Origin: Mesodorylaimus sp. YZB2_4
Taxonomy: Eukaryota; Nematoda; Enoplea; Dorylaimida; Dorylaimidae
Direction of reading: 5' to 3'
Assembly: GCA_030248295.1 (NCBI GenBank)
Contig: JASANH010001725.1
Span: forward strand, 434,001-498,000
Length of the DNA: 64,000 bases
A model generated the notes under the pieces. It was not told where the DNA came from. It saw only the letters and a program-made list of their open reading frames with translations, and ran no database searches. This document shows, in pieces, positions 2,191 to 55,300 of the stretch. Numbering within the stretch: the stretch's first letter is position 1; the number at the start of each line of letters is the position of its first letter. The translations under genes were made by a program, and so were the position numbers.

Positions 2191-5100
2191 ATGGGCAGTG
2201 GCTGGTTCGATGCATTCCGCGATCAAGGCGGTCCCACCTGGTACGGCGATAATCGAACACCTGTCATCGCAGATTTTACAACACTAAAACTGGTCGTGTC
2301 ATTTTGTATATTTCTTCTGGCATTTCTGGTCATTTTTCCAGGCATCAGGCGCGCGGTAAGTCATATCTGACTACTTGCTGCCCTAAAGGCATGAGCTAAT
2401 CAGGGAGATGGCACTTGCTCTGCTGTGTACGCTGCAATGGCATTCTACCATTGGTATTGCTTACTTTGAGTTATCTTCCCCGTTCTTGCATGTGGCTTCT
2501 CCCATCAGCTGCACTGCGCTGTGCCAAAACGTCCATACCTACGTTTGGTCTTTTCTTTCTCCTATGCGTGCTCTCGTTCCACAACTACCTCAACTTTCCT
2601 TTTCCATTTTTCAAAATTTCGTTTTCCATTCCATTCCATTCCTGAATAATTATATTTCCGAATTCAAACATTGGGTGTGCAATTCGGAATACAGATGCGG
2701 ACTTCCTCTGAACCAATTCGTCCAACTTTGCATAAACAGACCACACTTGTCTTGTCTCGGTACCTGGCCCCCTCAGTATCTCATTATTGACTTTCCGAAT
2801 CAGTCATGTTTCCTGTTCCTCGCCGTGACACAAACCATATACGGAAGAATGGCGGTGGCCTTCCTGATGATTCTTTGTCCAAAATGGCAAACAGGCCTTC
2901 TTGCGCAAACTGACCTCGTTGACATTCTTCCGCCAGGCATGTACCCCATTGCACTGCTCCCTGACCTCTTTATTTGGAAATCACTGCTGCCGTCTTGTGG
3001 AGACGGGCACCGCCTGAATAATGTGCATTTCATTTTTTCGTGGAGCAACTCAAGGTTGCACCAAAGGCAACTGCAGGTTGCAACTGAACAAGCATGAGGT
3101 GTCAGAACATCACTCGCCCCATTTGAACTAGTAGGCCATGATTAGTTACTGAGGGGTGCATGGCTATCCGCACCCTGTAGATACATGCAGACATGTTGGT
3201 AGTCTCTAGTTGTTTTGTGCTCGTTCGCAACACATTGCCTCTGTCTAATCTATGATGCAGCGTGTGCAGTTTCTGCACCCTGCTTTTGCGTAACCCTCAT
3301 TTTACGACTGAAGACCAGGCCATGTCCATGGCTTGATCCTCATAAAATGGTGGGCACAGGACGAGGTGTGCATTTAGTGCCTGGGAGCCAAGTTTCTGTC
3401 TCAAAGCGCAGTGCGTCACTTGGGATGTCTGACGATGAGTATTGTGTGGGCACCAGTTGTGTTTTATCGCCATTTCCAATCACCAACCTCTGTAAAAGTT
3501 TTCTGTCATGAATTTAGAGATGGACGAGCTTTCTTTCGATGACGCTCACGCTGCTCGTCGGCGCTATTTTACTAGGTAAGTATTTCTTATGCTTTATTAC
3601 TGTTTTGTGTTTGGCCTCTGGCCGAACGCACGTGGTGTTGGTGACGATTGCGCTCGCACCTCCTTCGTCTTTGCTAGCCATCAAATTTCAGCGAGCATTA
3701 TTGTAGAGGGCGGGTAGATCAAGCGACGCATTCTCTGCATACCGGACCTTGATCGGGTGACGTAGGGAGGCATTGTCGCTGTACAAGTGTCTCCTTTTAC
3801 AAACGACTTCAAACAGCGTAACTGATAAATTTTGCTAATTTTGCCCGTCTAATCTATTGTCGCATTGATGAGTGAAAGTATGTTCTTGTTGGAGCAGGAT
3901 TCGCCCTCGGGTCACGTTTACATCACTCAAACTACAAAGCGCAAGTCACACGCTTTGTTCCCATTTTAAGCCACTTGACTTGCTCTTTGTGTTGGTTATG
4001 ACTCGGGGTGTAAATATAAATCTTCGTCGATACAAACTAAAAACTTGTTTTACTCAAGGAATGCCCATGACGAAACGTGTAAGTTTAGTGACGCCCTGTA
4101 GAACTACTGTTTGCCTTGGAATCCATCTTCAACTGGGGGGGGGGGGGGGGAGAGAAAAATATTGTGCTCAAGAATCATACACAGCAGTTATATGCATGAC
4201 TTCCATATCATTTTCCTGGCGCTACATCTTTGCTTTGGTTTTTATTTTAGTCTGCACCTATTACCCTGGCTGGCACGTAGCACTGGTACGTGTCCGCATG
4301 CCGTACCGCTCGTTCAGTACGGAAAAATTGGACGCCATAATTGGCGTTGAAATCGGTTTGGAATCTGTAAATATTACACTACGGGGTGAGTGCAATGCTT
4401 TGTGGTCTGTCATATCTGACGTGTTCAAATATGTGCTCCGTTGCAGGATCTGCTGAGCGCAATATCCACAGCCATATGAACTATAATGAACGCTTTTACT
4501 TTGCCGAAGGTAAGGGCACAATGTGGTCCAGTTTGAGTGTGTTCTATGTGGACTTTGGTCATGTTTCAGTGAAATCGATGCAAAGGGACTTCAGCGATGC
4601 TCTTGAAAAAGGGTTGCCGTACCCGATCATGAGCGTTGTTGAGTATTTATCAGTCGACAAAGCGGGCTTTATTTGGGGTCGTCTGTATCGGTTGGCGGGA
4701 TATTATACGCGTATTTTATTGTGGTGAGTGGGGCGTTCGTCATTTCTTGTGTTCGAATTGGAGTAGACGTGATTAGGTTGGAATGAGTGCAGGTGCAGGC
4801 GAGTGTGACTCGGCTAGACACGTTCCACTTTCGGTGAACCGTAAAAGACGAGAGGGCATGCTGACCGAAATTCTCGAATCTACCTAATTTTTGAACCCAC
4901 TTTCTGGTTCGCACATCTCTGGTATGGACAGGAGAGAACTGACAGTCGTTGATGCTACCCTTTGCCTACAATCTGCGCGCTCTGCGAAAAACATGAAAAA
5001 ACCGCACCGCAAGATATAGTTGGGGTATCTAGAAAGTAGGCTGGTCTTTAATAATGCATATCAGAGCAGTTTCTTGAGAAGTCCAGCATCCATAAACAGC

Positions 5101-7089: not shown

Positions 7090-7359
7090 ACCGACTTCCT
7101 CGGTCAATGGCAGGCGGGCTGTGAACCCTGTCGTTTTTGGACAGCCGAGACTGTCCACTCGTTCGGCTTTCGTCTCTCCACTCGGAGCACCTCGTCGGTA
7201 CCGGGGTGAGTCATCAGCGGCCGGGGGTGCAAGGTCAGCGGGGTTTATGACTCGCAAATTGACCTTTGTCACTGGGGGTCGAACCCGGGGCGAGTCCAGC
7301 TATTTGCTCGCAAGCAAAACGGGCAGATAAATGCCGAACCACGCTCCGCCACCGCGGCC
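7090..7359 (-). mobile_element. tRNA-derived SINE, copy 1
   Basis: About 270 bp sharing colinear sequence with a second copy at 41.9-42.2 kb. On the minus strand it starts GGCCGCGGTGG, has an A-box-like TGGCGGAGCGTGG and, about 60 nt further, a B-box GGTTCGACCCC. That is the RNA polymerase III internal promoter layout of a tRNA head. The rest is a non-tRNA body ending near accgacttcc. No poly(A) tail or clear target-site duplication was found. No coding capacity. Confidence 0.8.
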
Positions 7360-33216: not shown

Positions 33217-33603
33217 TTAGGTCGATTCACCTCCTTGTTCTACACTTCCTCCTCCAGATTCCAATGCGGCCGTCACGCAATTACTGACTTGGGGCGCACT
33301 CGAATTGGTAGCAGTACTGCTTACTGAGATGGAAATAATATGACGTCCAGGGACCATTGTCAATCCGAGAAGACGAGGTTCTTCCATGATCTCCTTTCCG
33401 TCCTTGTTGGTCTCCACTGCATTGCCGTCCTTGTCGACGGTGGCGGGCCAATATTCGCGGGTCTGACCAAGAATAATATTGCAATCGTTATCGGTGCAAA
33501 GGAAGGTACCGACCACCTTGCGACCATCGGTCAGATGAATGCACAACGGACGATCGAGCCATCGCATCAACGTTTCACGACCACTCGATTCTGCTTCCGT
33601 CAT
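33217..33603 (-). CDS. NAA38: N-alpha-acetyltransferase 38, NatC auxiliary subunit (LSMD1)
   Basis: Single-exon 128-residue protein with an Sm/LSm fold. The Sm1 motif is about residues 13-48 (LMRWLDRPLCIHLTDGR, VVGTFLCTDNDCNIILG) and the Sm2 motif is LLGLTMVPGRHIISISV. The spacing and the REYWP segment after Sm1 match NAA38 rather than spliceosomal Sm proteins. It is the auxiliary subunit that, with NAA30 and NAA35, forms NatC, which acetylates N-termini such as Met-Leu and Met-Ile on ribosomes. The C-terminal 25 residues are a Gly/Ser/Glu tail. A 64-codon ORF about 70 bp upstream on the same strand (33673-33867) could be a small gene or 5' leader, but I cannot support it. Confidence 0.85.
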   Translation of the reverse strand: MTEAESSGRETLMRWLDRPLCIHLTDGRKVVGTFLCTDNDCNIILGQTREYWPATVDKDGNAVETNKDGKEIMEEPRLLGLTMVPGRHIISISVSSTATNSSAPQVSNCVTAALESGGGSVEQGGEST

Positions 33604-34513
33604 CGCTGCGGAGATTAAGAAGCGATAGGGGAAATCAGTATCAAAGGGCCAACAGCTGTCAACACTGGATGTCTAGCCGAAGCATACTGTAGTTGATTTC
33701 TCGAACAAGTTGCCGATTTGTTCAAGCACATATCGGAAATCGAATCGCACGCATGAAATACTGTTTCGCGCTTTATAGCAACTTATATCATGTACAAGCT
33801 CTTCTGGTAAAAACCGCGCGAAATTCAAACCTTGGTACTTCAATCTGAAGACAGCTGGTGCAACCATTTGTAAATATGTTGATTATAATGGGCGAAATAG
33901 TGAGTGTAATTGATTTTAGATGATTTAGAACGCTTATGTGCGCGACTTCGATTTTGTTGGTTTTCATTATTCACGGATGTCATGGCACACACTGCACGAC
34001 CGTCATGAACATGCGCGTGATTATGATCGAGAGACGGTTATGCCACAAAAGGTAATGTAATGCAATTTAAAGAGGCCATGTACGTACGCATAGTTGAATG
34101 GTCTCTTTACATTACGTCTTTTCCGTTTTGGTTATGTTGTTAGCAGTGAGCTGATGCGGTCGAAAAGAGTATGTTATTCGAAACATACCATGCCCTTCTT
34201 TCGCACAGTTCATCGTAATTACTTTGAAACCGCATTTTCAAAACTCTGCACGTGATAATTTAAACGTGTTGACCCCCTCTCCATTCGTTATAGCTGATAC
34301 ATATGACCCAAGGCTTCTCCATCGCTTGACCTATCACAGAGCACAGGCAGCAAGCAGCAGGGACACGTCTGACCTCAGACTGACACATCATGCGCGTTTT
34401 ATTATCAAATAGCGAGAGGCAGGATGAATAATTTACAGGTACATTTTGTATTCGGTGCGGACGTACACTTGTGGTCACCAGGTGTGCAGTCTTTGAAAAT
34501 CCGATTCCGGCAA
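33604..34513. other. Intergenic, no supported gene
   Basis: AT-rich. Contains a minus-strand 64-codon ATG frame (33673-33867) of unknown status and nothing else recognisable. Confidence 0.4.
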
Positions 34514-35632
34514 TCACATGTGGTAGTATTTCGTATCATTGGATGGTTCAGTAGACGAGGCAATAGCGTCGGTCAAGCAGATTGTACTACTAGTACGTTC
34601 CATGTCCAAATTAACGTAGTCGCCCCCAAAGTGTGCCCGTATTTTATGCCGCTTAACGCCAAGATAATCCGAAATTCTTTTTCGGAACACTATGCATAAA
34701 ATGGCAATGATCAATATTGTGAAGACGAAACCAAAGGCCACGGAAGTACTCGAGTGACCAGATGCTTGCATACCGTTCGCTGAGGCCGTGTCATTCAATG
34801 ACGAGACATTGTGACTGTCTGATAGCGGTGTGGTAGCAGTGGTTGAAGTGAAAGTGGAATTCACACTTCTCGGGTTTGTTGGAGTTGTTGGAGTTGTCTT
34901 GTTCTGGCTTGATTTTCTGGTACTTTCGACAAAATTTGTGCATAGTTCATTGATTAGACTGACATAAATTGAGGCATTGGCCTTTGTCATATTCAAGGAG
35001 AAGAAGTAGGCGTGGGACACAACCATGTTGCCGTTAATGACAATGCTGAAATTTGCACTTCTGGCGATATCCGGGTTGGTGGTCAAGTTCACATAGAAGC
35101 CATAAAATGCGCCATTGTCGATGAGCATATCGAAGAGATTGGTCAAGTATATGTCCTGCTCGTTTGCGGATGACATGTTGGAGCATGTGTCCACCAATAG
35201 AAACTGCGAGGTTTTGGTTGGCGCCTGAAGACTAATCACGCTTTCCTTATTGACGAGGGTCACATTGGAGAGGGCAGCTGTCACGTCGATTGTATCCACT
35301 TCGATCTGCTTATCTGTGATCAGAATATTATTCTGACAACGAGCGGATGCATCTAACAGGCTGAAATTGAGGGCTGATGAACTAGTCGAAAAGTTCTCGG
35401 AGAAGTCAAACAGCTTCTGCCAATCTAATTTTGTCTGGCCCGTCACATCTTGTGGGACAGCCACGATCACAGAGACTACAATGGGTGGCAGATCAGTTGC
35501 TTGGCTGGTCGAAGGCGCACTGGTCGAGTTGGAATTTCCAATCGCGGATGTCGTAGCTGACTGAGCAATACATCCAATCTGAAATATGCTGATTCCAGCC
35601 ACAACTGCTAAACACCGCCACAGCAGCAGCAT
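34514..35632 (-). CDS. Type I membrane glycoprotein, unknown family, paralogue A
   Basis: Single-exon, 372 residues from ATG at 35632. Signal peptide at residues 1-24 (LLLWRCLAVVAGISIF), then a Ser/Thr-rich stretch. The core ectodomain has the motifs FLLVDTCSNMS, GAFYGFYVNLTTNPDI, NFSIVINGNM and INELCTNFVES. A Thr/Ser-rich stalk with many N-x-S/T sites follows, then one transmembrane helix (VAFGFVFTILIIAILCIVF), basic residues FRKRISDYL and a 45-residue cytoplasmic tail ending KYYHM. Paralogue B, about 1.5 kb upstream on the same strand, shares these motifs in order, so this is a tandem duplicate. I do not recognise the family. The likely role is at the cell surface, but function is unknown. 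A C15 tract lies about 100 bp upstream of the ATG. Confidence 0.75.
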   Translation of the reverse strand: MLLLWRCLAVVAGISIFQIGCIAQSATTSAIGNSNSTSAPSTSQATDLPPIVVSVIVAVPQDVTGQTKLDWQKLFDFSENFSTSSSALNFSLLDASARCQNNILITDKQIEVDTIDVTAALSNVTLVNKESVISLQAPTKTSQFLLVDTCSNMSSANEQDIYLTNLFDMLIDNGAFYGFYVNLTTNPDIARSANFSIVINGNMVVSHAYFFSLNMTKANASIYVSLINELCTNFVESTRKSSQNKTTPTTPTNPRSVNSTFTSTTATTPLSDSHNVSSLNDTASANGMQASGHSSTSVAFGFVFTILIIAILCIVFRKRISDYLGVKRHKIRAHFGGDYVNLDMERTSSTICLTDAIASSTEPSNDTKYYHM

Positions 35633-35731
35633 TTCCTCTTTTTAATACTAAATCAAAGCCAAATACCAGGTTCGACAGCGATGCAATGCAATCAATGCAA
35701 GGACATCTTGGCGACGTTTTAAAAGATAACG

Positions 35732-36605: not shown

Positions 36606-36931
36606 AACGAACATGAGAGGGCTGAGATTTGCTCTCACTGCGAATGACCCCAAATTATACAGCGTCTCATCGTATTGTTCAGCACCCGCAATTTACAGGT
36701 GCTCAAACTATGTTAATTTTGACGATGAGGTAACCCTGAAAAGCACCACTTAGCCATATTCGTCGTTACCTTCGAGTAACCAAAGTAGTGCTTTTTCAGG
36801 GTTATCTCATCGTCAAATTAACATATTTTGAGCACCTCCAAAGTGCGGCTACTGAAATACGATGAGACGTTGTACAGTATAATGCGGGGTCATTCGCAGT
36901 GAGAGCAAATCTCAGCCCTCTCATGTTCGTT
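36606..36931. mobile_element. Foldback element (about 147-bp inverted arms, 31-nt loop)
   Basis: Left arm 36606-36751 (aacgaacatgagagggctg ... aagcaccactt) is closely complementary to right arm 36783-36931 (aagtagtgct ... cagccctctcatgttcgtt). There are a few substitutions and small indels. The loop itself contains a smaller GTTAC/GTAAC stem. No open reading frame. This is the structure of a foldback MITE or a very recent hairpin. If transcribed it would form a long double-stranded RNA. No target-site duplication could be established by eye. Confidence 0.85.
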
Positions 36932-37160: not shown

Positions 37161-38384
37161 TCAGTACTTGTATTCGGGATGATCAATGTAGTTGGTCACA
37201 GCCTGTCGTCCCGTTTCCTCTGCAGGACCAGTAGAGTTACGCCTGGAGACAAAGTCATCCATACTGTATTCATGCTCGAACAGAGTGCCATATCTGATGG
37301 AAGGGCCACCTACGGTCGCTCGTTTTCTGCGTAAATATCTTCCGATTCTTTTTCGGCATAGAACCAAAATGAAGCCTACGATTAACAACGCTAGGATAAG
37401 ACCCAAGGCCAACGATGTGTTCGAATGGCCAGAGATTGCGTGTTTTTCGACAATAGGGGACGTCAGAGCATTCAAGGGCGGTGTCGTCGCATTGCTCACA
37501 TAACCTGATGTGGTGGCGATGGTGGTGTCGCAGCCACTTGCATTTGCACAAGGGCTTATCGCGGCCGTAGTTAAAGCCATTGAGGAAGTGACCGTTGAAT
37601 GTGCCAGACTTGTCGTGGTCGTGGCCGTGCTTGTGCTCGTCCTCGTATTCAAGGATGCATTTTCAACACGACTCTTTACACTTTCCACGAAATTCGCGCA
37701 CAGCTCATTGGTTAGGTTGACAAGGGCAGTGAGATCCATCTTGGTCATATTCACCCGAATGAAGTAAGAATGGTTTAAATTCATGCGGCCATTGACTATC
37801 ATGCTGAAGTTTGACTCCTTTGAAATATCAGGTTCAGTCCGTAGGTTTAAGTAGAAGCCGTAGAAAGTACCGTTAGCGAAGCTATCGAAGAATTTGAGCA
37901 ATGCAGCTTCCTTGTCTCGTGCAGACATGGGTGTTGAGTTTGAACACGGATCCACTAGAATGATTCTTGTTCTGTTGGTTGGCGCTGTGACAAATAAATC
38001 GGAGCCATTGATGAACTGTTTTCGTTCAATCTGCAAATCCGTCGTGACATCTGTTATGCTCACCTCCGTCGAGGCAGCCACTTTGTCTCTCGTCGCGTTG
38101 CTGTTCAGTGAGGCGACCATAATAGGAAATTCGGCAACCAGGCCCAAGTGCTCTGACCAGCTCCCTTTGGTGGAATTGCCAGGAATGGACACGATGATGG
38201 AGACAGTATTTGACAGAACAGTCCCATTGCCGCCTGATGGGGATGCATGGTCAGTCGAAGCATTTGTCGACTGGTTGGCAGTAACCGTGGCCAGTGTACT
38301 GGCAGTGGACGGGATGTCAGGCGCAGTGAGTCCTCGTCCTATTATTCCCAAGACCATAATCTTCAAGCACAACAGAGTCAACAT
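37161..38384 (-). CDS. Type I membrane glycoprotein, unknown family, paralogue B
   Basis: Single exon, 407 residues from the ATG at 38384 (two codons inside the longer non-ATG frame). Signal peptide MLTLLCLKIMVLGIIG. The ectodomain motifs follow the order of paralogue A: IILVDPCSNSTP, GTFYGFYLNLRTEPDI, NFSMIVNGRMNLNHSYF, VNMTK and TNELCANFVES. Then come a Thr/Ser/Ala-rich stalk longer than in A, one transmembrane helix (LALGLILALLIVGFILVL), CRKRIGRYLRRKR and a tail ending HPEYKY. The conserved Cys pair and FYGFY segment suggest one folded ectodomain module. Tails of A and B share only the Tyr-rich end. Same orientation and organisation imply tandem duplication. Function unknown. Confidence 0.75.
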   Translation of the reverse strand: MLTLLCLKIMVLGIIGRGLTAPDIPSTASTLATVTANQSTNASTDHASPSGGNGTVLSNTVSIIVSIPGNSTKGSWSEHLGLVAEFPIMVASLNSNATRDKVAASTEVSITDVTTDLQIERKQFINGSDLFVTAPTNRTRIILVDPCSNSTPMSARDKEAALLKFFDSFANGTFYGFYLNLRTEPDISKESNFSMIVNGRMNLNHSYFIRVNMTKMDLTALVNLTNELCANFVESVKSRVENASLNTRTSTSTATTTTSLAHSTVTSSMALTTAAISPCANASGCDTTIATTSGYVSNATTPPLNALTSPIVEKHAISGHSNTSLALGLILALLIVGFILVLCRKRIGRYLRRKRATVGGPSIRYGTLFEHEYSMDDFVSRRNSTGPAEETGRQAVTNYIDHPEYKY

Positions 38385-39398
38385 TTTCAATTTTCACTGT
38401 GCGCTTTTGAAACCGATTTCTTTCTCCAGCCTCCTCCAGTAGTCGACTTGAGCCAACGCGACCTCACAACAGCTTGACGAACTTTATACAGTACAACACC
38501 CACCCCTGTCGTACTTGGTAAAGCTCCGCAGGTGAGTGCGTGCGTCTTCAAGACTAGTCTTGGAGAAACAAGTTTCCCAAAACATCCCTCTTCAGCATCC
38601 TAAGTTTGTCAGACTGGGTTATTTGATTTCCTATTTTCGCCTCGTTCACTGAACCGCAGCGTGACTCACGTCAACACCATATCTATGACTGGGCTTCATT
38701 GGGCAAGAGGGTAGAGTGCTAAGTAGGGACAGTAGTAAGTTACGCAAGACGACATCATCGAGGCAACATGAAAAATAAGCTATGCACACTGACTATGATC
38801 GTAAATGCGAATTGTGCGACTTGAGTCACGAATTTAATGTGTCGTAAAATTTTATGGCACATCTAACCGATCTGCTGTATGACGGGTGCATCTTGCAAAT
38901 ACGCTATCTCACAATGACTATACGGATAAGGAAGGCTGATGATGTCTGAGGCGGCGATTTCTTACAATTTGTCGATCGAAATACAGCACGCCTTCCAAAC
39001 ATGTCTTGGCTTCGCGCCTTCCCACTTCACATCCGTCGCTGATTTCCCTCAAAGTCTCTCCAACCTGCCCTGCGCCATGCTGGTGGCTGATGTATGCACT
39101 GGGAAACACGGCCTCCACTTGGGCGGGCAAATCACTCATTTTTCTCCTGGCTGATCTACCGCATATGAACAGGATTTGCATCGATCGATCATTTGAATTT
39201 GAGACAGATGATATAGGTAAATAATTAGTACCTGAAAATCTTTTTTCGTCCAATCAGAGAGCGCCATCTGTTTTCCAGCGAAGTGCGGGATCAAAGTCCT
39301 TACAGATTCCACTTCGGTGCCGACTACGCGATCGAATTTTAGAAAGGTCGAATTTCTGATCTGAGTTTATTAGCTGTAAAACTTGATTGGTGCGCAGG
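38385..39398. other. Upstream region of UEV/RING copy 1
   Basis: Unique sequence to about 38.82 kb, then the outer part of the inverted repeat. A minus-strand frame (MQILFICGRSARRKMSDLPAQ...) at about 38.92-39.19 kb is open here but frameshifted in the other arm, so I do not call it a gene. Confidence 0.4.
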
Positions 39399-41360
39399 AT
39401 GACCGAGCAAGGAGTGAAACCGAAGTAAGTTTCGACAGTTTCGAACGAAATGACAAGAAAGTTCAGGCAAAGTTTAGTCAATTTGCACAAAACCACGTCC
39501 CCCGAAACGGAAACGAAGCAATGAGCTTCTTCGCTGTCCCCGTCTTCCTAAAGCCCCGAGTTTTGGCGTTTTTGTCTTAGATCGCCGCAAGAACTGGAAA
39601 AACTGTACGAGCGATATCAGTCGAGCCGATGCCGAGACGAAGTTGCCGACATCACCTCCCGCCCCATCGACGGCGTCGTTTTTATTACGGTCACGGCTCG
39701 GAAAACGGAAACCGGAAAGTATTTGTAAGTTGCCGACTGATTGCCCGTCGACTCCCCGACTTGACTTTTTCTTTCTAGGCAAGTGTTTGAATTCGATGTG
39801 AAGAAATACGAAGCAGTTTTGACCGTGCTCCTTCCGCAAAAGTTTCCGTTCGTGCCCCCAGTAGTGAGCCGAATCCGATTCTTGGTGACCTTTGTGCCCT
39901 GCATGGCTCGCTGTTCAGGTAACGTTCGAACACAAAACCATCCCGTCCCACCCGGACATCGACGCCGATACGGGCCGCGTTCGCGGATTTTGGACGGAGA
40001 AGGGCAAGTGGAGCAAGGAGACGAAGATCCGGAACATTTGCGAAAACGTTGTGAAAATGCTGTCCGAAGCTAAGACGCCGGTGAGTCCGAGTCCGTTTCA
40101 CTCGGGGGTGCTCACGCTTGTCCTTTCAGATTCCGTCGCCGCCACCGCTAATTAAGAAAAGCGACGACAACGCTCTACGATTCCGGGCCGCACCGGCCGA
40201 ATTCAGATACTTGTGTAAGCTTCCTGATTGTCTTCAGGTTGCGGCCAGTCTCTGAGCGCTGTTCATAGGCATCGGTGAAGGAAAGGTGTTCGTGGCCAGT
40301 CTGAGGCGTCATTACAAGTGCGCGATCAAGTTCAATTGGAAGGTGAGCTGGTTCGTTTTTGGGTCATTCGAGTAACCGACGCGCGATCTCGTTTCAGAAG
40401 AATCGTCGCGAGGGCGGTCCGTGCCTCATTATCACTTCGCCTATTCAGCCCTCGCGAGACGCGGTGGCTGCCGCTTTGGACGCGTACCTCGTGCAGAAAG
40501 GAGTTCGTCGTTTTCGGAAAATGACAGAGGTCGATCCCGAACCCGATGCCAGGGCCTTCGTAGCGTCTTTCGGAGGATCGTCAATTACGGCCTCTGAAGC
40601 AGGCGACCTGATCGAGTTGGACGACGACGGTGCGGATGAGTCGATCTTCCGAGTTGCGATCGTAGACCCTCTTGATTTGCAGAGAGTCCAGTCGAGGAAC
40701 CACGCCATCGTTTGGAGGAATCAGAAAGCAGTCTGATTTTGGATGGAGGGGAATCGCTATTTGTTAAGGGTGAGGGTAGCCAGCCAGTTTTCTGACCTGT
40801 TTAGTAATATTCCTTTTGTTTTAGACGGAGCCGAGAACGAGTATTCGGACGACGAGATGCGTAAAGTGGCCGAGAGCCTGACGACCCTGTTTGGAGCCAC
40901 GTTGTTGAAAGTCTGGAGCAAGGCTCATTCAGTGATGCTCGCCGTCGTCCGAGCGTCGTCGGCTGTGGGCCAATTGAACGTAGAGTTGTGCAGTTTAGGA
41001 GAAGCCATCGACCAGTTGGAGGGCATCGTGGAAGGTCATCGCCACCAATTGGACAGTTGTGAAACGGAATTTCAGTTGCTGCTGGACTCGTCGCGTCGTT
41101 TCAATTGTCCGATCTGTTTGCGTCGTGTGATCGACGCTGTTTTGAGTTGCGGACACGGGTTCTGCGGAAAGTGCATAGGCAGTGGTCATCGTTGTATTCG
41201 TTGCCACCAAATGGTTCAATCGAAACTGACCTTGTTTCCGACTGCGTAGGTTTTTGTTTGTTAGAGCAGAGACAGAAATTGTTTTCTCGTAGGGTAATGG
41301 TGTAGAGTATTTATATGTGAATTTGAGGGCCTGTGAGAGCCATGTCAATTGGTTTCGTTG
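38820..41360 (+). repeat. Left arm of 2.5-kb inverted duplication
   Basis: Colinear, reverse-complementary match to 46845-49380. The coding part (39.4-41.25 kb) is almost identical. The outer and inner ends are recognisably homologous but carry many substitutions and small indels. The ends were judged by eye where matching sequence fades. Confidence 0.93.
39399..41249 (+). pseudogene. UEV/KH-like/RING protein, copy 1, broken splice donor
   Basis: Same exon structure as the intact copy on the other arm: 39399-39424, 39581-39724, 39779-39860, 39919-40080, 40130-40214, 40269-40342, 40398-40635, 40683-40769 and 40825-41249. Together they would encode 440 residues. At the donor of intron 7 the sequence is GCGG-ATGAGT (A at 40636), while the other copy has GCGG-GTGAGT. 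With the donor lost, retention of the 47-nt intron shifts the frame to TGA at 40734-40736, giving about 303 residues without the acidic linker and RING. Exons downstream are still intact and near-identical, so the lesion is recent, or the product is a functional truncated, RING-less form, or an AT-AG intron is tolerated. An ATG at 40743 opens a RING-containing frame that could be translated separately. Confidence 0.7.
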
Positions 41361-42581
41361 AACTGGTTGATGCCGACTGGCAGTGGCCCTCTTGTTCGTT
41401 GTGTCATAATTCGATTGCGACTGATAGAGAGATTAGGAAAAATTTTACGATCTGTCCTTGTAACATTTATTGAAGCTCACGTTAGTCTACTAGCAAACCT
41501 TGTGTGCGGGGTCTTCAGTGAGATCCTCATGGTCCTAGTTCGATCTGGCTCTGCTCGTCTGATCGACGGTGAAATGCTTCTGACTGCAGCTGAAGCAGGT
41601 GGTCAATGCATCAGATTTGTAGCACCTAGTTTAGGTTTTGACAGAAACGAGTAATGTGATTGGACGGCCTGCAATGGCTTCATGCGTGAACGCAAAGGCC
41701 AATCTGAATGTCGGGAATGCCTGATGCAGCTAAGCAGCGGACAGGAGCGTCATACTGTAGCTGCCTCAGTTTTTTTGGGCCAAAGCCCGTTTTTCCTATA
41801 ACCGGCCAACAGTCAAACCTTATAAGCTGGGCTGTGCGGGGACCGGCTCACACAGACGCGTCCCTCTGCGCGTTCCTACACGAGGCCATCCTGGACTGGA
41901 CACCGACTTCCTTGGACGATGGCGGGCGGGCTGTGAACCCTGTCGGTGTTCGACACTCGAGACTGTCCACTCGTTTGGCTTCCGTCGCTCTAGAAGCACC
42001 TCGACAGTACCGAATGAGTCACCCACGGCCAGGCGTGCAAGGTCAGCGAGGGTTTATGGTTCGCAAACCGACCTCCATCACTGGGGATCGAACCCTAGAC
42101 GAGTCCAGCCACTCGCTACCAGGCAGTACGGAGAGACGAATGGCGAACCGCTGTACCACCGCGGCCAATAGCTGCCTCAGTTGCCAGTCACAATTTGGTT
42201 ACTCCTGGAACATTTGCGAGGGTTTTTTACGTACATCTCGCTCGCAAGATTTGCGCAGCAATTTCTTATCGCAGCGCAAATTGCTTTTGGGTACATATTT
42301 GGCGAGAATCGAGATCGAGATGCATCAACCAATAAATCACTAAAACGACTACATCGCCTGCGCCTTTACTTCAACCAAGTGATGTGTCCAAGGCCGAGAT
42401 GTCAAAATGAACGTTTTTGTCACCGAAACATGTGAAACCCCTTATGACCCTAATCGTAAGTAAGACCTGAATAAAGATTAGCTAACTACTCAAATCATAT
42501 GGCTAACTGGGGCTAACTCGTTAGGCACCATTGAGGCAATCAAAACCCGATCCCGATACGTCTTGCCCTACTGTATGTTGT
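41250..42581. other. Interval with SINE copy 2; no gene
   Basis: Holds the inner end of the left repeat arm (to about 41360) and a SINE at 41902-42166. Plus-strand frames here run through the SINE and are not coding. Confidence 0.5.
41902..42166 (-). mobile_element. tRNA-derived SINE, copy 2
   Basis: Second copy of the element at 7.1 kb, colinear over about 265 bp with scattered substitutions. On the minus strand: GGCCGCGGTGGTACAGCGG (A-box-like TGGTACAGCGG), then TAGGGTTCGATCCCC (B-box), then the shared body ending in accgacttcc complement. It lies in the spacer between the inverted arms, 3' of aldolase. Confidence 0.82.
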
Positions 42582-44535
42582 CTAATACTGATGTTTCTCG
42601 ACGAACAAGGACTGACTGGACGCAGCAGTCGACGCCTCGCTTTCGTACTTGCCAAGCGTAGCCAAACCGTTAGCCTGTAAAGGAGATATTATTTGCCGAG
42701 GATCGAAAATACTGTATACTGATAAGGAATCGGGGTTTGGAAGGACTAGTTACCAGAGGAAGACTATTGCGTAGGCACTCCCAGCACACACGCACAAACA
42801 CAGCGACACGTACCCGAGCGCGTGTGAAGAACACTTGCTGCGCTGCTTTCACGTTCTCGTCTTTTCCTTGCCAAGCCTTCAGAACGGAGGCCTGCAAAGC
42901 GCGTCCGTACGAGAAGCTTAGTGCCCACGGTTTCTTGCCAGGGAATTGATTGATGGCGTTCAAATTGACGCTCGCATCCACTTCAGACTGACCACCCGAC
43001 AAGAAGACAATGCCTGCAAGGAATCAACCATAACATCAGAAGTCTTACCACACCACAGTCCCTTACCAGGCACAGCGGCGGGTACTCCGCGCTGGAGAGC
43101 GGTGACGGTAGCTCGAGCGATGTCCTGAGGCGATGCTCTCTTCGGACAGGCTTGGCCCGGGGTGACCATATTCGGTTTCAACAACGTTCCCTCCAAGAAG
43201 ACATGATGATCGGCCAGGGCCTTGTACACGTAGGCCAGTGTTTGTTCGGTCACTTTCTGACAACGTTCCAAATCGTGATCGCCATCTTGCAAGATTTCTG
43301 GTTCGACAATCGGAACCAAGCCATTCTGAAAACAAAGAATTGCTGACCGCGACAGTACACAAAGTACAGTAGTTGCTGATACCTGCTGGCAGATGCTAGC
43401 ATAACGAGCCAAGACGTTCGCATTCTCCAACAGCCCCAAATTCGAAGGCGTATGCGGTCCGATTGTCAAGACACAACGCCACTTGGCAAATCGGCATCCA
43501 CCATCGTAGTATTCTTTGCAACGAGCAGCCAAATCGTCCAGTCCTTAAGACCAAAGATTGGTTCAATAACACGATCTCGACAAAACAAGCCTATCAGCAG
43601 ATCAGATCAAACGGGAACTCATTTCGCTGCGAGGTCGCACAAGACCTCGTGTCATTGAAAGGGACGAAAGAACGGAGATTCTAAACACTGACTAGCACTC
43701 TCAGGACAGAGCACGCCTTTGTGCGAACACAAATTCAAGAGGTCTCCCAAAACTACCTGCTTGTACTCCTACTCCCATCTGCTCTCTTGCAACTAACCTT
43801 GCGTCGTTCCTTCTCCAATCGTTCCAGCTAACGGCACGACCCCCTTGTCCACCTTGATGCCCGGAATGATGCCTTGCTGTTGCAACAGTACTGGGAACGG
43901 CGTTCCTTTGCTATCTTTTTGCCGGAATGTTTCGTCGTACAAAATTACACCAGAAATATGATCTGCGGCCGATGTGGTGAAAAGCAGCTGACGGTATTTG
44001 CGACGGTTTTCGGCATTATTTTCTAATTTGATATCGGCAAAGCGTTTTCCAATTGTTCCTACAAAAATATTTCAAGGATTGCTTCAAGTTTGATTTATCC
44101 ACTGGACTGTAGTCTCTGTTCTTCGATACAAAACAAAGCACTCTTCCAGAAATTCCTGTTTTTCAAGTTTCCAATAGACTTATTCGCAAAAAGGACCACA
44201 AATGCAGTTTTTACTGTTGGATGAATCTAAATTATTGAAGCGCTAGTCTATTGCTGGTGTTTGACCATTTTTTTGGAAAATCAAAAACTAAAACTTTCAG
44301 TTTTCTTCCAGTTTCTTGAAATTTTTTAAAAACTGGGCACAAAGCCAAGATTAGAAACATCTTAATTTTTATGCATTAAGTGCAATTACTGTATAAATTA
44401 GATTTCCTTACCCGTGCTTTCATCAGCAGCCAAAATTCCCTTTCCAGGTGCCACGATTGCCTCTGCCGTTTTCCTCAGTGCATCTTCTTGAGCCGTGGTC
44501 AAATATTGTTTATAACTGCCACCGACTTCGGCCAT
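42582..44535 (-). CDS. ALDO: Fructose-bisphosphate aldolase, class I
   Basis: Cytosolic glycolytic enzyme cleaving fructose 1,6-bisphosphate to dihydroxyacetone phosphate and glyceraldehyde 3-phosphate. Six exons (44412-44535, 43798-44058, 43383-43543, 43067-43325, 42814-43013, 42582-42674) give 365 residues, the family length. The N-terminus is [20 protein letters not shown], followed by [17 protein letters not shown]. The Schiff-base Lys is in [21 protein letters not shown] and [20 protein letters not shown] follow. The last residue is Tyr (EKHQY), the C-terminal Tyr needed for catalysis. All introns are GT-AG. It sits with the GST gene between the two arms of the inverted duplication, both on the minus strand. 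Confidence 0.96.
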
Positions 44536-45497
44536 TTTTAAAGAACTCTTCGTTGAAATAAAAACTGAATTTGTGGACCGTGCAGAAGAGGAATGTTGGT
44601 TGGTATGCGAACACAAGGAGCAAAGTAAACAACACACCACTCCGGCCTGGGCATCCCGATAGTTTGCATACGTGGCACGCATAGTCAGGGCGACAGTCAC
44701 GTGACTTGCCTGCAGGCGATTGGCTGACGATGCTGTGGCAGTGCCCGCATGATTACACGGAGGCGATGGCTCGTAAATTGTAAAGTAATGTTCATCACCT
44801 GAGCATGTGATTTTGTGTATTTTGTTTTGAGTGATCTCTTTGTCAGCCAAATTCTGTACACTATGCTTTCCACTGGGCAGAAATGCTAAAATTTGTGCAT
44901 GCCTCGCAATGCAATGTGAAGTGCACATGCGAGCAATGACGTCTATCGAACACACCAGAAATGAGGCACTCGCTAATGGTGGGGCCCGGGACGGTCATAA
45001 ATGTGCTGTGACACTGTCTTTACGAATGCACAAAGCAGATTGCACCTTCGACTCGCCCGTGACTGCCTGACTGGTGGTGCAGTAAGGAAAGAGACATGTT
45101 CCACACCGACGTGGGCACCTTTATGTTCTCACCTAATCCTCCTGCATCCGTGTTCGAACATCTCAATCAAAAGCACACCCAATTATCCACCACTCAGTCA
45201 CTCGAACCAGTCCTTATTATTGCACTCGTCACCCCACCTTTCTCCACTTTTTTTGCTGCTTGCCAATCATGCGTGACAAATGTCAAACCCGCCTTTTTAT
45301 TTCTAACATTTCTAAAAGATGTCCCCTACAAGCCGAGATGTGCGATGAGCCAAAACGCAAAGCAGAAACATTGTGCACCAGCGATTTTGAAAAAGATGAG
45401 ACATAACTAGGCCAAGCAGAAGTTCGTGCCAAGCTCAAAGCCAGGAGTGCAAATAATCAACTGGCTTTCCCGATAATCCTCTCGAAATTTGTACTCC
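44536..45497. other. Intergenic between aldolase and GST
   Basis: Upstream of aldolase and downstream of GST. No supported gene; plus-strand frames of 79-104 codons have no recognisable features. Confidence 0.5.
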
Positions 45498-46433
45498 TTA
45501 GAGCACAGTTGGAGGACGTGATGTAACGTACGATTTCAATTGTGGCAACTCGAAAATTTTATCCTTAAATTTCTTCAATTCCGGACGCGAATCCAAGGCT
45601 TTTGCATTGAAACAATCTTCCAAAACCGACATGAATTCGGCCACGGCAATATCTGCCCACGTAATCTGAAAATGCAAAGCCAACTTTTCTGTAGACTTGA
45701 GTTTTATCTCCAAACATCTTTAAAACCCACCGAATTTCCCACAAAATATTCACCACCATTTTCCTGCAAAAACTGGTAATAACGGTCCAAAAACGGTTTC
45801 AAATGTTCCTCGACGAGTAGGGCCCAATTTTCGTCCTGGAATAGTCACACACTCTTCAAATTGAGCTGACCGGGATTTGAACCTGCGCCCTGAACCCTGA
45901 ACTGCAAGCCTTACCGCACTTTTCGCATCTCCTTGCAATTTAGGCATGTAGACACTTTTCAGATTACCCCACATATCGAAGATGCCATCGACCAACATAT
46001 CGGCATGGGCCATATCCCAATTAGTTTTCCCCGCCAAACCTAATTTCAAATTTACTTGAACAACGCACTCATACTAGTCCGAATCGACATTTGCATACCG
46101 TGTTCGCGGGCGAGATAACGACCGATGGCGGTCGACTGACATAATTTTTTACCATCGATTTCCAAAACTGGTACTTGACCCATCGGCATTTCTGAAATTG
46201 CAAAACAATGCCGGTTTTGAATAGCGAAAAAACCAAGCCAGACAAAAAAAATTTAAAGTGCAAAACAGGGGGAAAATGGAACTTGAGGACTTACGTGCTT
46301 TGACCGATGGCCATTGCTCGACCGAAATTTTAACATCTTCAAATTTTGTGCCAGTATAGACAAGCAATAAACGGGCTGTTTCGGCCCGTCCTCTCATCGG
46401 GAAGTAGTACAATTTGGTCGCGTGTTCTGGCAT
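45498..46433 (-). CDS. GST: Glutathione S-transferase, sigma-like
   Basis: Cytosolic dimeric enzyme conjugating glutathione to electrophiles or isomerising prostaglandins. Five exons (46295-46433, 46099-46191, 45915-46039, 45731-45835, 45498-45665) give 209 residues. The thioredoxin-like N-domain begins [15 protein letters not shown], with the catalytic Tyr at about residue 9. [20 protein letters not shown] binds glutathione, followed by [11 protein letters not shown]. The helical C-domain has [14 protein letters not shown], the N-capping box typical of GSTs. The ATG at 46433 fits the family; an upstream in-frame extension is ignored. Intron 3 (45836-45914) contains a tRNA-like 3' half. Neighbour to aldolase, same strand. 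Confidence 0.93.
45838..45910 (-). other. tRNA-like 3' half inside GST intron 3
   Basis: On the minus strand the intron reads GGCGCAGGTTCAAATCCCGG followed by TCAGCTCA. This resembles a T-arm with B-box GGTTCAAATCC and part of an acceptor stem. The upstream half overlaps the exon and shows no convincing D-arm or A box, so it is not a complete tRNA gene. It may be a SINE remnant or chance. Confidence 0.35.
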
Positions 46434-46954
46434 TCTGGCGGAGTAGGCAAACAGGCAGCCACGTGCGATTACGTCGAGTCGATAGAACTTTGTAAAACCC
46501 AAACCCGCGTCCCTTATTTATATGCGCCGCCCGGGAGCCAGCTGTCGGCAAGGGAATACTCAACACAACGTGGCACATCCGCTTCGACTGGGGTATCTGC
46601 TGGAGACTACATTCTACCGTGCGCAATGGGAGCAGAGTGCAATGAGCAGACACATCGCCCAAACGAGAATTGCAAAGTCGTTCGATTGATTGTGGCAGAA
46701 TTTCTCTGGTTAGATCCACTGTAACTGCAGAAGAGAAGGCGGGGCTTCGAGCACTCCTGTTGCATGCAGATTTCGAAGAGTACATTTTGCTGAAAGACAA
46801 CTCGAAGGGCCCTTAAAACATCACTTTCCACCTAAGACAAGTAAAACGAGAACGATTAAAATGGTTCTCACGAGCCCTCATATTCAAATATAAATTCTTT
46901 AACGCCATTCCTGCCGAGAAAACAATTCCTGCCTCTGCTCTAACAAACAAAAAC
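46434..46954. other. Intergenic; 3' flank of UEV/RING copy 2
   Basis: Holds the GST promoter side and, from about 46845, the inner end of the right repeat arm. No supported gene. Confidence 0.5.
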
Positions 46955-49380
46955 CTACGCAGTCGGAAACAAGGTCAGTTTCGATTGAACCATTTGGTGG
47001 CAACGAATACAACGATGACCACTGCCTATGCACTTTCCGCAGAACCCGTGTCCGCAACTCAAAACAGCGTCGATCACACGACGCAAACAGATCGGACAAT
47101 TGAAACGACGCGACGAGTCCAGCAGCAACTGCAATTCCGTTTCACAACTGTTCAACTGGTGGCGATGACCTTCCACGATGCCCTCCAACTGGTCGATGGC
47201 TTCTCCTAAACTGCACAACTCTGCGTTCACTTGGCCCACAGCCGACGACGCTCGGACGACGGCGAGCATCACTGAATGAGCCTTGCTCCAGACTTTCAAC
47301 AACGTGGCTCCAAACAGGGTCGTCAGGCTCTCGGCCACTTTACGCATCTCGTCGTCCGAATACTCGTTCTCGTCTTCGTCTAAAACAAAAGGAATATTAC
47401 TAAACAGGTCAGAAAACTGGCTGGCTACCCTCACCCTCAACAAATAGCGATTCCCCTCCATCCAAAATCAGACTGCTTTCTGATTCCTCCGAACGATGGC
47501 GTGGTTCCTCGACTGGACTCTCTGCAAATCAAGAGGGTCTACGATCGCAACTCGGAAGATCGACTCACCCGCACCGTCGTCGTCCAACTCGATCAGGTCG
47601 CCTGCTTCAGAGGCCGTAATCGACGATCCTCCGAAAGACGCTACGAAGGCCCTGGCATCGGGTTCGGGATCGACCTCTGTCATTTTTCGAAAACGACGAA
47701 CTCCTTTCTGCACGAGGTACGCGTCCAAAGCGGCAGCCACCGCGTCTCGCGAGGCCTGAATAGGCGAAGTGATAATGAGGCACGGACCGCCCTCGCGACG
47801 ATTCTTCTGAAACGAGATCGCGCGTCGGTTACTCAAATGAGCCAAAAACGAACCAGCTCACCTTCCAATTGAACTTGATCGCGCACTTGTAATGACGCCT
47901 CAGACTGGCCACGAACACCTTTCCCTCACCGATGCCTATGAACAGCGCTCAGAGACTGGCCGCAACCTGAAGACAATCAGGAAGCTTACACAAGTATCTG
48001 AATTCGGCCGGTGCGGCCCGGAATCGTAGAGCGTTGTCGTCGCTTTTCTTAATTAGCGGTGGCGGCGACGGAATCTGAAAGGACAAGCGTGAGCACCCCC
48101 GAGTGAAACGGACTCGGACTCACCGGCGTCTTAGCTTCGGCCAGCATTTTCACAACGTTTTCGCAAATGTTCCGGATCTTCGTCTCCTTGCTCCACCTGC
48201 CCTTCTCCGTCCAAAATCCGCGAACGCTGCCCGTATCGGCGTCGATGTCCGGGTGGGACGGGATGGTTTTGTGTTCGAACGTTACCTGAACAGCGAGCCA
48301 TGCAGGGCATAAAGGTCACCAAGAATCGGATTTGGCTCACTACTGGGGGCACGAACGGAAACTTTTGCGGAAGGAGCACGGTCAAAACTGCTTCGTATTT
48401 CTTCACATCGAATTCAAACACTTGCCTAGAAAGAAAAAGTCAAATCGGGGAGTCGATAAGCAATCAGTCGGCAACTTACAAATACTTTCCGGTTTCCGTT
48501 TTCCGAGCCGTGACCGTAATAAAAACGACGCCGTCGATGGGGCGGGAGGTGATGTCGGCAACTTCGTCTCGGCATCGGCTCGACTGATATCGCTCGTACA
48601 GTTTTTCCAGTTCTTGCGGCGATCTAAAGCAAAAACGCCAAAACTCGGGGCTTTAGGAAGACGGGGACAGCGAAGAAGCTGATTGCTTCGTTTCCGTTTC
48701 GGGGGACGTGGTTTTGTGCAAATTGACTAAAATTTGCCTGAACTTTCTTGTCATTCAGTTCGAAACTGTCGAAACTTACTTCGGTTTCACTCCTTGCTCG
48801 GTCATCCTGCGCACCAATCAAGTTTTACAGCTAATAAACTCAGATCAGAAATTCGACCTTTCTAAAATTCGATCGCGCAGTCGGCACCGAAGTGGAATCT
48901 GTAAGGACTTTGATCCCGCACTTCGCTGGAAAACAGATGGCGCTCTCTGATTGGACGAAAAAAGATTTTCAGGTACTAATTATTTACCTATATCATCTGT
49001 CTCAAATTCAAATGATCGATCGATGCAAATCCTGTTCATATGCGGTAGATCAGCCAGGAGAAAAATTTGTGAATGGCCCGCCCAAGTGGAGGCTGTGTTC
49101 CCTAGTGCATACATCAGCATGGCGCAGGGCAGGTTGCAGAGACTTTGAGGGAAATCAGCGACGGATGTGAAGTGGGAAGGCGCGAAGTCAAGACATGTTT
49201 GGAAGGCGTTCTGTATTTCGATGGACAACTTGTAAGAAATCGCCGCCTCAGACATCATCAGCCTACCTTATCCGTATAGTCAATGTGAGATAACGTATTT
49301 GGAAGGTGCCCCCGTCATACGGCAGATCGGTTACATGTGCCATAATATTTTACGGCAGATGAATTTCGTGACCAAAGTCT
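46845..49380 (-). repeat. Right arm of 2.5-kb inverted duplication
   Basis: Reverse complement of 38820-41360. Relative to the left arm it lacks seven bases (near 49115) outside the gene and carries scattered substitutions, most of them outside coding sequence. Confidence 0.93.
46955..48805 (-). CDS. UEV-like / KH-like / RING-finger protein, intact copy 2
   Basis: Nine exons, 440 residues, from ATG at 48805 to TAG at 46955. Residues about 10-138 resemble a ubiquitin-conjugating (E2) fold: VFEFDVKKYEAVLTVLLP, FPFVPPVTFEH, HPDIDADTGRV and W-SKETKIRNICENVVKML. The segment that should carry the active-site Cys reads GRVRGFW, so it looks like an inactive UEV. Residues about 150-225 (RYLCIGEG, FVASLRRHYKCAIKF, AVAAALDAYLV) resemble a KH RNA-binding fold with a degenerate GxxG loop. 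An acidic linker (DLIELDDDG, EDEDENEYSDDE) and a helical segment follow. The C-terminus has a C3HC4 RING: FNCPIC, SCGHGFCGKCI and HRCIRC. A RING beside an E2-like fold suggests a ubiquitin ligase, perhaps RNA-associated. Intron 7 has a normal GTGAGT donor. I know no named family with this order. Confidence 0.75.
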
Positions 49381-52332: not shown

Positions 52333-55300
52333 TCACGCTGTCTTGTCGCTCCCTTCGCTGCTGGCCTCCATTTTCTGCAATCGCCTTTGCATGGCTCGCT
52401 GCAATTCGCTTTGAAACGCATTCGAAAATCCTTCCTCGCCCGACGGTGGCCGATTGGTCGCCGCCTGGTGACTAGGGCTCGTCATTGCCGTCGAAGAAGC
52501 ATTCGGAGCTGGTAGCAGTTTCGGCTTTGCAGGAATGGCGGGTTTCGGTTTGGGAGCCGTCACTGGCGGGGGTGTCAATGGATTCGTTCCCGGCCCAATG
52601 CTCAGACGAGTGTTCTCGGCCCTCTTAGGTGGAGCGGGAGGCATTTTCCTCGGTTTCGTCCCGTCTTGGCTGACTCGAGGCGACGTAGGAGGGTGCGGAG
52701 GCAGTGGCAGGTTCCCGTGCTTCCCGTTCAAGTGTTGACCATCATTGCCATTCGTGTACGCCGGCGACACGGGCGATCGAGGCGACACCGTGTGCGAAAT
52801 CACGGATGAAGACGACGAAGTCCCGTTTTCCATTATTTTCACTTCCAGCGGCTGCGGCGTCCTCGCCTGTAGCTGGACAGGCGAGTGAGCTTGCGGTAAA
52901 GGCGATGGAGGAGGGGCGAAGTCAGCAGCGGCGGCGAAATCGGCTTGCAATGTCGAAAATGATGGCGGCTGAGACATGGCATGCACTGGCATGGGCGGTG
53001 GGAGTTCTTCGTCGGAATCGTTCTCTTCATTTAGCGACCGACTAGATCCATTCCGTCCGCCATTCATCGACTGCGTCTCGTGACTTTCGCTGTGCTTTCG
53101 CAGAACCGCGGCCAAATGAATATGCTTGGTGCTCTCGGTCAAAGGCAATCGAGCATTGTGATGCGCAGCACCCATCGCATACGCTGGCAGGATCTTGCTC
53201 GGAGCCGTGGTGGTCGGAGGCTGCCGTTTGATGGTTCCAGTCGAGAATTCAGATTCGAAACCATTCATCGATTGCGAATCTGGTGTCGGTGTTTGCGAGT
53301 CGACCGATCCGCCGCTCGTACCATTAGCACCCAGACTGTGCACGGCAGCAACTGGTCGTTTCACAATTCCTGGGCTTTGTTCTGACCTGGCGATCGTCGA
53401 TTCGGCAATTGGCAGTACAGGCACATCCACATGGGTCAACGTTCGACTGTTCCTTTTTTGAAAACCTGAGCGACCAATATCGGCCGAACGAGGCCGCAAC
53501 GAAATGGGCGATAATCGGCAGGACGGATCGTCACCACTGCCGCTACCTCTCGAAGGCCGCAAAACGATCGAGTCTTTGCAGTAAAATTCCGAATTGCTAC
53601 TCGCAGACAGCGAATTCCTCATGTATCCATCCAACACAATGGTTGCCCCATCAGGAGTCGGCTGCCCGTCCATAGATTCCAGAATATTTTGGTAGTTCTC
53701 CAACAAAGCATGCCCGCTCTAAATTCAGCTCTTTAATCTCAAGAATCCCCAACAACGCAATTGGGAAACCTTTCTTACCTTGGCTATCCTCAGGCCAGTT
53801 AGCCATCGCTGATGGGATCGCTCGTCTTCCGCGCACAAATACTTGATGTACGTCGACGCTTTGACCTGAATTTGAGGATGCTGAAAACAAAACTTTTTCG
53901 TCAGCCTGTTCATAAACGGCTTTTTAACAGATTCCTTCAATGCTAGCGCTCCCACAGACAATTGCTCTTCTCATTTTAACTCACCATTCCACGCCTCACC
54001 TTTAAAGCAAAACCAAAGTCCGTCGGGGCTTTGTACTTCTTTTTCCAACCAAGGCCGTTATATATTTGAATCATTTCCAAATTCATGAGGCAGACCAAAT
54101 CTTTCGAGCCCTGAAAGCACGAAAACCAAAATATATAACAGCTTGATTCAAAGAAAAACTGTACGATAACGTTCCCCTTTGACCAACGGTCGACTATAGC
54201 CCAAGAGGATAGCTGATGTCATCACTTCCTATTGCATTCTAATGATTACTGAAACGTCTACTATACAACGTTACAGTGGTATAGGTGAATGCGCCTTCCC
54301 TCAGAGCACCCACACCCACTTGTCTCTTCCCGAACAGTTCCTCACTCACCTTTCCTTTTCCCTTTGGGACGTAATAAAGTCCGGAGGCTCGTAGAACGAA
54401 ATGGTGTTTCTTCCAAGCTTTTTTGCCGTCCGCTTTCAAATAAAGAGTTCCATCAATCTCGGGCGGCTGTACTCGAGACAACGAAAAAAATTCCTAAAAT
54501 AACAATGCTTTCCCACTTGCCACGCCCGACGGACCGCAATAGCCCACTCTTTCTTACATCAATCAGTTTCTCCTTTTTTATCGCGTCCATTTCCGGAGTT
54601 TTTTCCGCGTTTGGCACGTCCAACAGGTAGCACTAAAATGGATTGGGCGCATTAACAACCTCGCTAACCTTCTTCCAACGTGAAGCACTCACCTGCGGTT
54701 CTTTAAATAAATGGTACTTTTCAGGCCTCTCCACAAAATACAATTTATTTGCCGAATCTCTCGTCCACAGCAAAAGATTCTCCACCACGTATTCGTGGTC
54801 CTCGTAAATCCTTTCTGAAACAACAAGCAACTGCCAACTTGATCTCGTTTTCCACAACCGCCTCACATACCCATATACAGATCAGGCAAATGCTCGACAA
54901 TTGCGTGCGTAGGCATCAACGGAATGAGGTGCTTTTCGGCCAGTTGACGCAGAGCATAGGCCACTGTCCATTTCTCGTCCACCAAAATACTTTTGCTGCT
55001 TCCATCCGGCGTAAAAACTTTTACGTACAGCTGAAAAAAATTATTTTTACTATTAACCACAAACACAATTTCAATCAAGACATACCTTTTTAACGCTGGC
55101 TTCCTTCATCTTCTGTAACGCCAATTTGATCTTTTCAGCTTTGATCTTTGCATTTTTCTCCTCCTGAAACAGTTTCAACGCGATATGGGACTACAAGGAT
55201 AAATATATAATTTACTGCCACCTCCGTCAAATTCTCCTTCTGTATCTCTTGTTCTATATTGCGAATATGCGACTGAACTGGCTCCAACATCTGAAAACCA

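Follow-up and report, generated by a model that had tools for sequence, protein, structure and literature searches.

Introduction

In Drosophila, the tightly linked mirror paralogues Hsp70Aa/Ab and Hsp70Ba/Bb are homogenised by ectopic gene conversion, and crossing over between them can produce inversions; these pairs are described as being under purifying selection and as having silent polymorphisms common to both paralogues (PMC3924832). The palindromic pair Amy-p/Amy-d is likewise homogenised by conversion while its flanks apparently evolve independently, with concerted evolution described as limited to the coding sequence (PMC3924832). On the human Y chromosome, the arms of the palindromes are described as >99.9% alike and their conversion as GC-biased, arm-to-arm conversion in palindrome P6 having a mean tract of 2068 bp and inversions mediated by its arms being rare beside conversion (PMC3723533). 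Two further reports describe human inversions mediated by inverted repeats, with repeats of 1.6–24 kb and inversions of 5.1–226 kb, which were genotyped, 17 of 22 predictions being validated (PMC3961182), and yeast loci at which template switching between short inverted repeats both homogenises the arms and flips the spacers (PMC8604942).

Here we describe an inverted gene pair in a window of 64,000 nucleotides, the whole stretch of DNA that was analysed, which corresponds to positions 434001–498000 of contig C48 in an assembly of 145 Mb and 1067 contigs. The locus carries two linked paralogues in opposite orientation, as in the Hsp70 and Amy class, and its two copies probably share a converted core. 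In contrast to the Hsp70 pairs, omega between the two copies is near 1 and one of them may decay, and in contrast to the Amy pair, the homogenised part includes introns and around 260 bp upstream of the gene. The homogenised stretch of about 2.1 kb is similar in length to the mean P6 tract, whereas its identity of 98.5% and the absence of visible GC bias differ from what is described for the Y palindromes. The 2.5-kb arms and the 5.5-kb spacer fall within the ranges of the human inversions, which were genotyped, while the window locus is known from one assembled orientation. In view of the Hsp70, Amy and related precedents, the behaviour of the locus is already of a known kind; the family of fusion genes that it carries, combining a ubiquitin E2 variant (UEV) domain and a RING domain, is less familiar.

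Results and Discussion

The inverted arms and the genes between them

A self-BLAST of the whole window returned a single long inverted match, with 2551 columns at 96.5% identity (E = 0), between the arms listed in Table 1. A separate repeat search returned the same arms as two ungapped pieces, of 2282 nt at 97% and of 268 nt at 92%. The inner arm ends lie 5469 nt apart, and the genes of both arms face inward. An earlier note on this DNA had described a large palindrome whose two inverted arms surround an aldolase and a glutathione S-transferase (GST) gene. In both searches the arms proved to be real, with the coordinates given there correct within about 10 bp, and Pfam matches bore out the presence of both genes in the 5.47 kb flanked by the arms; the term palindrome, however, is loose, since the repeat is inverted but imperfect and its arms are separated by a spacer of 5.5 kb.

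Beyond the arms, no homology was found between the two outer flanks (1.2 kb), for which the alignment score of 30 was reached by 3 of 100 shuffles (maximum 34) and the best match was a 15-base stretch not adjoining the arm, nor between the two inner flanks (0.8 kb), whose score was under the null mean and was reached by 80 of 100 shuffles.

Table 1. Features of the inverted pair and its surroundings (window positions), and places of the gene family in the assembly.
Feature	Position	Strand	Remarks
Arm A, inverted repeat	38818..41367	+	Self-BLAST, repeat search and column comparison
Arm B, inverted repeat	46837..49379	-	Self-BLAST, repeat search and column comparison
Homogenised core, arm A	39138..41271	+	32 of 2134 aligned columns substituted (noncoding 16/808, coding 16/1326); bounds by eye
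Outer (gene 5') edge, arm A	38818..39137	+	27/313 substitutions and a 7-bp gap
Inner (gene 3') edge, arm A, most diverged	41272..41367	+	26/96
Gene A, nine-exon UBC-like/RING model	39399..41249	+	Exons by eye from splice borders and open frames
Gene A, exons 1-5	39399-39424, 39581-39724, 39779-39863, 39919-40080, 40130-40214	+	
Gene A, exons 6-9	40269-40342, 40398-40635, 40683-40769, 40825-41249	+	
Intron 7 of gene A	40636..40682	+	Donor ATGAGT (GTGAGT in B)
Gene B, same nine exons	46955..48805	-	All eight introns GT-AG, 441 aa
Class I fructose-bisphosphate aldolase	42582..44535	-	Six exons, joined by eye; match covers positions 2-349 of the 349 in PF00274 (E = 1e-176)
Glutathione S-transferase	45498..46433 (limits approximate)	-	Exons joined by eye; GST_N and GST_C; sigma-like among PDB matches
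Dispersed high-copy repeat adjoining arm A in the spacer	41878..42166	.	SINE-like; tRNA-like motifs by eye
Family places in the assembly	C48 two, C165 four, C6 three, C82, C327, C823 and C104 one each		

With regard to the spacer, the best 120 of 7999 scored protein matches to the aldolase were considered. Among those listed with an organism name, Romanomermis (75%) and Plectus (73%) were the closest nematodes over the full length, and seven were from other organisms, namely a plant (62%), a moth (60% over 71%), a mite (73%), and an annelid and three molluscs (70–72%); the highest identities listed, up to 92%, were to short contigs. Of the 27 organism-named aldolase matches listed, 20 are from nematodes, and the best PDB matches of the GST include nematode enzymes; the DNA is therefore likely to come from a nematode. 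When the assembly was searched with the spacer, eight matches were obtained, namely the spacer itself and seven pieces at 70–84% on C8 and C146, all seven of which fall within the aldolase part. Another copy of the dispersed repeat is present at 7090–7359, and its genome-wide search gave 3001 candidates, 40 of the 40 scored being matches, its own copy included. Tandem repeats, tRNAs (ARAGORN) and Rfam families were each searched for in the window, with zero found. Flipping of the spacer by recombination between the arms is possible.

The duplicated UBC-like/RING gene

Each arm carries the same gene model, with nine exons and eight introns of 47–156 nt and with a product of 441 aa; its borders derive from open frames and splice consensus, so that these are predicted models only. 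Pfam placed a ubiquitin-conjugating (UBC) domain at residues 71–153 (PF00179, E = 8.7e-9). In alignments with UBE2W and UBE2L3, the catalytic site corresponded to V106 or R107, respectively, and hence to no cysteine. Because V106 or R107 occupies the aligned catalytic site, the UBC domain was called UEV-like, and the predicted protein thus appears to combine a UBC fold without catalytic cysteine, as in UEV or E2-like domains, with a C-terminal RING. The latter matched PF00097 at the cut-off of 21 bits, the remaining RING models being under their cut-offs, and exon 9 encodes, as read by eye, the C3HC4 pattern C-x2-C-x10-C-x-H-x2-C-x2-C-x6-C-x2-C, the zinc-binding pattern of RING E3 ligases; a ligase role is putative. 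The best PDB match of the RING was RING3 of MIB1, which forms part of a fusion chain.

The gene thus shares with UEV proteins, i.e., cysteine-less E2 homologues, a UBC-like domain without cysteine at the aligned site, and with RING E3 ligases a C3HC4 RING, but differs from both in that it joins the two domains in one protein. Among 7996 candidates scored, there was no orthologue of this protein at E ≤0.001. A literature search, judged by title and the start of the abstract, retrieved no paper on families of UEV-RING fusions; this speaks only weakly against an earlier description.

Identity is uneven along the arms

The two arms differ at 92 columns, comprising 85 substitutions and a 7-nt gap, and these differences are not evenly distributed. 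Identity was 98.8% in coding sequence (16 of 1326 positions differing) and 97.1% in introns (15 of 525), and only one change was present in the 261 bp upstream of the ATG, whereas identity decreased to 91.4% in the outer edge and to 72.9% in the inner edge (Table 1). The edges are therefore about 4 times (outer) and 14 times (inner) more diverged than the noncoding sites of the core. A segmentation based exclusively on noncoding columns gave 38918–41270 as the best inner block, with 29 differences in 1020 columns compared to 40 in 197 outside it, and a log-likelihood gain of 33.8, the highest value among 200 permutations being 11.9. In line with this, differences were less frequent in core noncoding sites (16/808) than in the outer edge (27/313; p = 2e-6), in introns (15/525) than in the inner edge (26/96; p = 3e-13), and at synonymous sites (4/314) than in the outer edge (27/313; p = 1e-5), with the proviso that the core bounds were picked after the data had been seen, which the permutation test allows for and these Fisher tests do not.

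Therefore, the uneven identity claimed earlier, with near-identical coding sequence and more diverged edges, is real, and equality of intron and flank identity, which would argue against conversion, was not found. As expected of a pair of the Hsp70/Amy type, the silent and noncoding sites of the gene are homogenised in comparison with the edges of the duplication to which they belong. Introns nevertheless differed more than coding sequence did (15/525 versus 16/1326, p = 0.016).

The core and the edges seem to derive from a single duplication, because the inner edge is homologous between the arms (55 of 79 ungapped columns matched, the best of 2000 shuffles giving 37), identity in the outer edge is 91%, and neither edge, used as a query against the 145-Mb assembly, gave a match other than arms A and B, so that no third copy of either edge was found. 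The differences in the outer edge are point changes scattered across 320 bp and do not form a single patch; edge differences are partly clustered, for example at 41290–41308.

Coding changes and a lost splice donor in arm A

Between the two copies, 12 nonsynonymous and 4 synonymous changes were counted over 1009 and 314 sites, respectively, which corresponds to a dN of 0.0119 and a dS of 0.0132 (NG86) and to an omega of 0.93. The probability of at least 12 nonsynonymous changes among 16 was 0.004 at an omega of 0.2, 0.03 at 0.3 and 0.20 at 0.5; accordingly, an omega ≤0.2 is rejected and an omega of 0.5 is compatible with the data. The latter value, together with the larger difference in introns than in coding sequence, leaves room for some mild constraint. 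No sign of GC-biased conversion was visible, neither in GC content, which was 49.5% in the introns of arm A and 49.1% in its outer edge, nor in the weak/strong differences of the core, which divide 15:14 between the arms.

All eight introns of arm B begin with GT and end with AG. In arm A, all eight end with AG, but only seven begin with GT, since intron 7 begins with AT at 40636. If this 47-nt intron were retained, the frame would shift and the protein would stop ahead of the RING. Splicing at an alternative GT, located 6 nt upstream, would leave the frame intact at the cost of two residues; this site scored 3.66, compared to 8.05–9.53 for the seven other donors of arm A and 8.79 for the arm B site, on a crude matrix trained on those seven other donors. 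Given the loss of the donor and the weakness of the upstream GT, arm A may yield a near-normal product, a shortened one or none. The statement in the earlier note that each arm holds a complete nine-exon gene consequently fits arm B, whereas the presence of two complete genes is unproven because of the GT-to-AT change in arm A.

Seven differences between the arms are located in exon 9, six of which could be polarised with the copies on C165 as outgroup (in one case with just one outgroup); five were derived in A and one in B, an asymmetry that was not significant (p = 0.22). Taken together, the lost donor and the fact that most of the few polarised changes are derived in A are suggestive of arm A being a decaying copy. 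That one arm has lost a donor suggests that a copy is not fully shielded from decay by conversion.

Probable gene conversion and other explanations

Arm-to-arm (interlocus) conversion of the core after an older inverted duplication is probably the best explanation of these observations. An inverted duplication of the UBC-like/RING gene would have produced two copies facing the aldolase–GST block, and the core, around 2.1 kb including promoter-proximal sequence, all exons and introns, and sequence just beyond the stop codon, would then have been overwritten by conversion, while the edges would have escaped it and retained the older divergence. Since the last conversion, the copies would have drifted by about 1.5%; strong purifying selection between the two is not visible, and arm A would perhaps now be decaying. 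As the two edges are unlike each other (8.6% versus 27%), one simple event would be insufficient and more than one probably took place; as the core is only 98.5% alike, conversion would be neither frequent nor very recent. We infer conversion as the cause, its timing and the decay of arm A; in the window pair, two copies without an orthologue, it is the uneven divergence that argues for conversion.

A single, fairly recent inverted duplication without conversion, with edges that mutate faster or were disturbed at formation, for instance by template switching at the ends, seems unlikely. In an earlier study, apparently of C. elegans (PMC2728529), newborn duplicates are reported to be frequently adjacent and inverted, and the clustering of some edge differences, as at 41290–41308, would agree with a disturbed end, but the point changes of the outer edge are scattered across 320 bp, and noncoding stretches next to each other would have to differ in rate by around 4- and 14-fold. 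The earlier note had left the choice between conversion and strong constraint, and here conversion is favoured, with introns and synonymous sites being nearly as alike as coding sequence, while strong constraint is disfavoured as the cause of the likeness of the core, because 12 of the 16 coding changes are nonsynonymous and an omega ≤0.2 has p ≤0.004. That strong purifying selection on the protein has kept the coding core alike is thus very improbable, despite the lower divergence of coding sequence than of introns (p = 0.016), since the introns and the 261 bp ahead of the ATG are alike too and a splice donor has been lost in arm A. Equally hard to credit is an assembly artefact in which two haplotypes of one locus were joined head to head: the spacer was carried by one contig in the assembly search, as such a joint would have it, but haplotypes would share sequence past the gene, where the arm flanks are without homology, the window contains no N, divergence ranges from about 1% to 27% within the arms, and another inverted pair is present on C165.

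The locus, with its probable arm-to-arm conversion, offers a modest example for telling conversion apart from constraint, since one duplication contains introns, synonymous sites and two diverged edges, and since the protein shows no strong constraint between the copies.

The gene family elsewhere in the genome

In the assembly, the family gave 28 exon-level matches at 13 places, the window's own included (Table 1); those on C823 and C104 were weak, UBC-only and with internal stops. Among eight loci examined, both domains were found in L047, L048 and L049, the UBC part only in L050, and the RING half only at four places in L044–L046 and L051. Two further UBC-like/RING genes, located at around 755 kb and 815 kb on C6, are 95% alike over 2952 columns and lie in direct orientation around 60 kb apart.

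A second inverted pair was found at C165:183000-192999 (L045), with arms at 3077–3992 and 7466–6532, for which the match was limited to the RING half. These arms are 90% alike over 938 columns, including a 576-nt stretch at 97%, and their identity is thus mosaic. L045 was the exception among the five loci scanned, as no repeat pairs of at least 60 bases were detected in L044, L046, L047 or L048. We compared the L045 pair with two further copies, located at around 82 kb and 68 kb on C165, as a quartet. Sites joining the inverted partners amounted to 20 of 26 in columns 440–900 and to 2 of 15 in columns 190–440 (p = 2e-4, for segments selected after the alignment had been viewed, and for the C165 pair, not the window pair); the other segments did not group the pair, with 0 of 4 sites in columns 900–1150 and 5 of 12 in columns 1150–1440, which are poorly aligned. 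Within those limits, the incongruence of the C165 quartet supports conversion in the family, and the second inverted pair could help to establish if an inverted orientation favours conversion in its own right.

A broader scenario, in which a young family of cysteine-less-E2/RING fusions would spread by repeated inverted duplication and conversion, as in the window and C165 pairs, while the arms would flip the aldolase–GST block with both orientations segregating and one arm would become RING-less via its lost donor, is doubtful and is put forward as speculation.

Other features of the window

Outside the inverted pair, a foldback at 36606–36931 pairs with its own reverse complement over 336 columns at 83%. 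The neighbouring open frames at 34517–35641 and 37164–38393 (- strand), for which there was no Pfam match, are 32% alike over 307 columns; they contain stretches rich in Ser, Thr and Asn and, as judged by eye, probably a membrane segment. At 54242–55105 (- strand), neighbouring open frames gave a PH match below the cut-off and an RA-like match, and may belong to a MIG-10/lamellipodin-type gene. Finally, the open frame at 33220–33672 (- strand) carries an LSM domain (PF01423, E = 3.5e-10).
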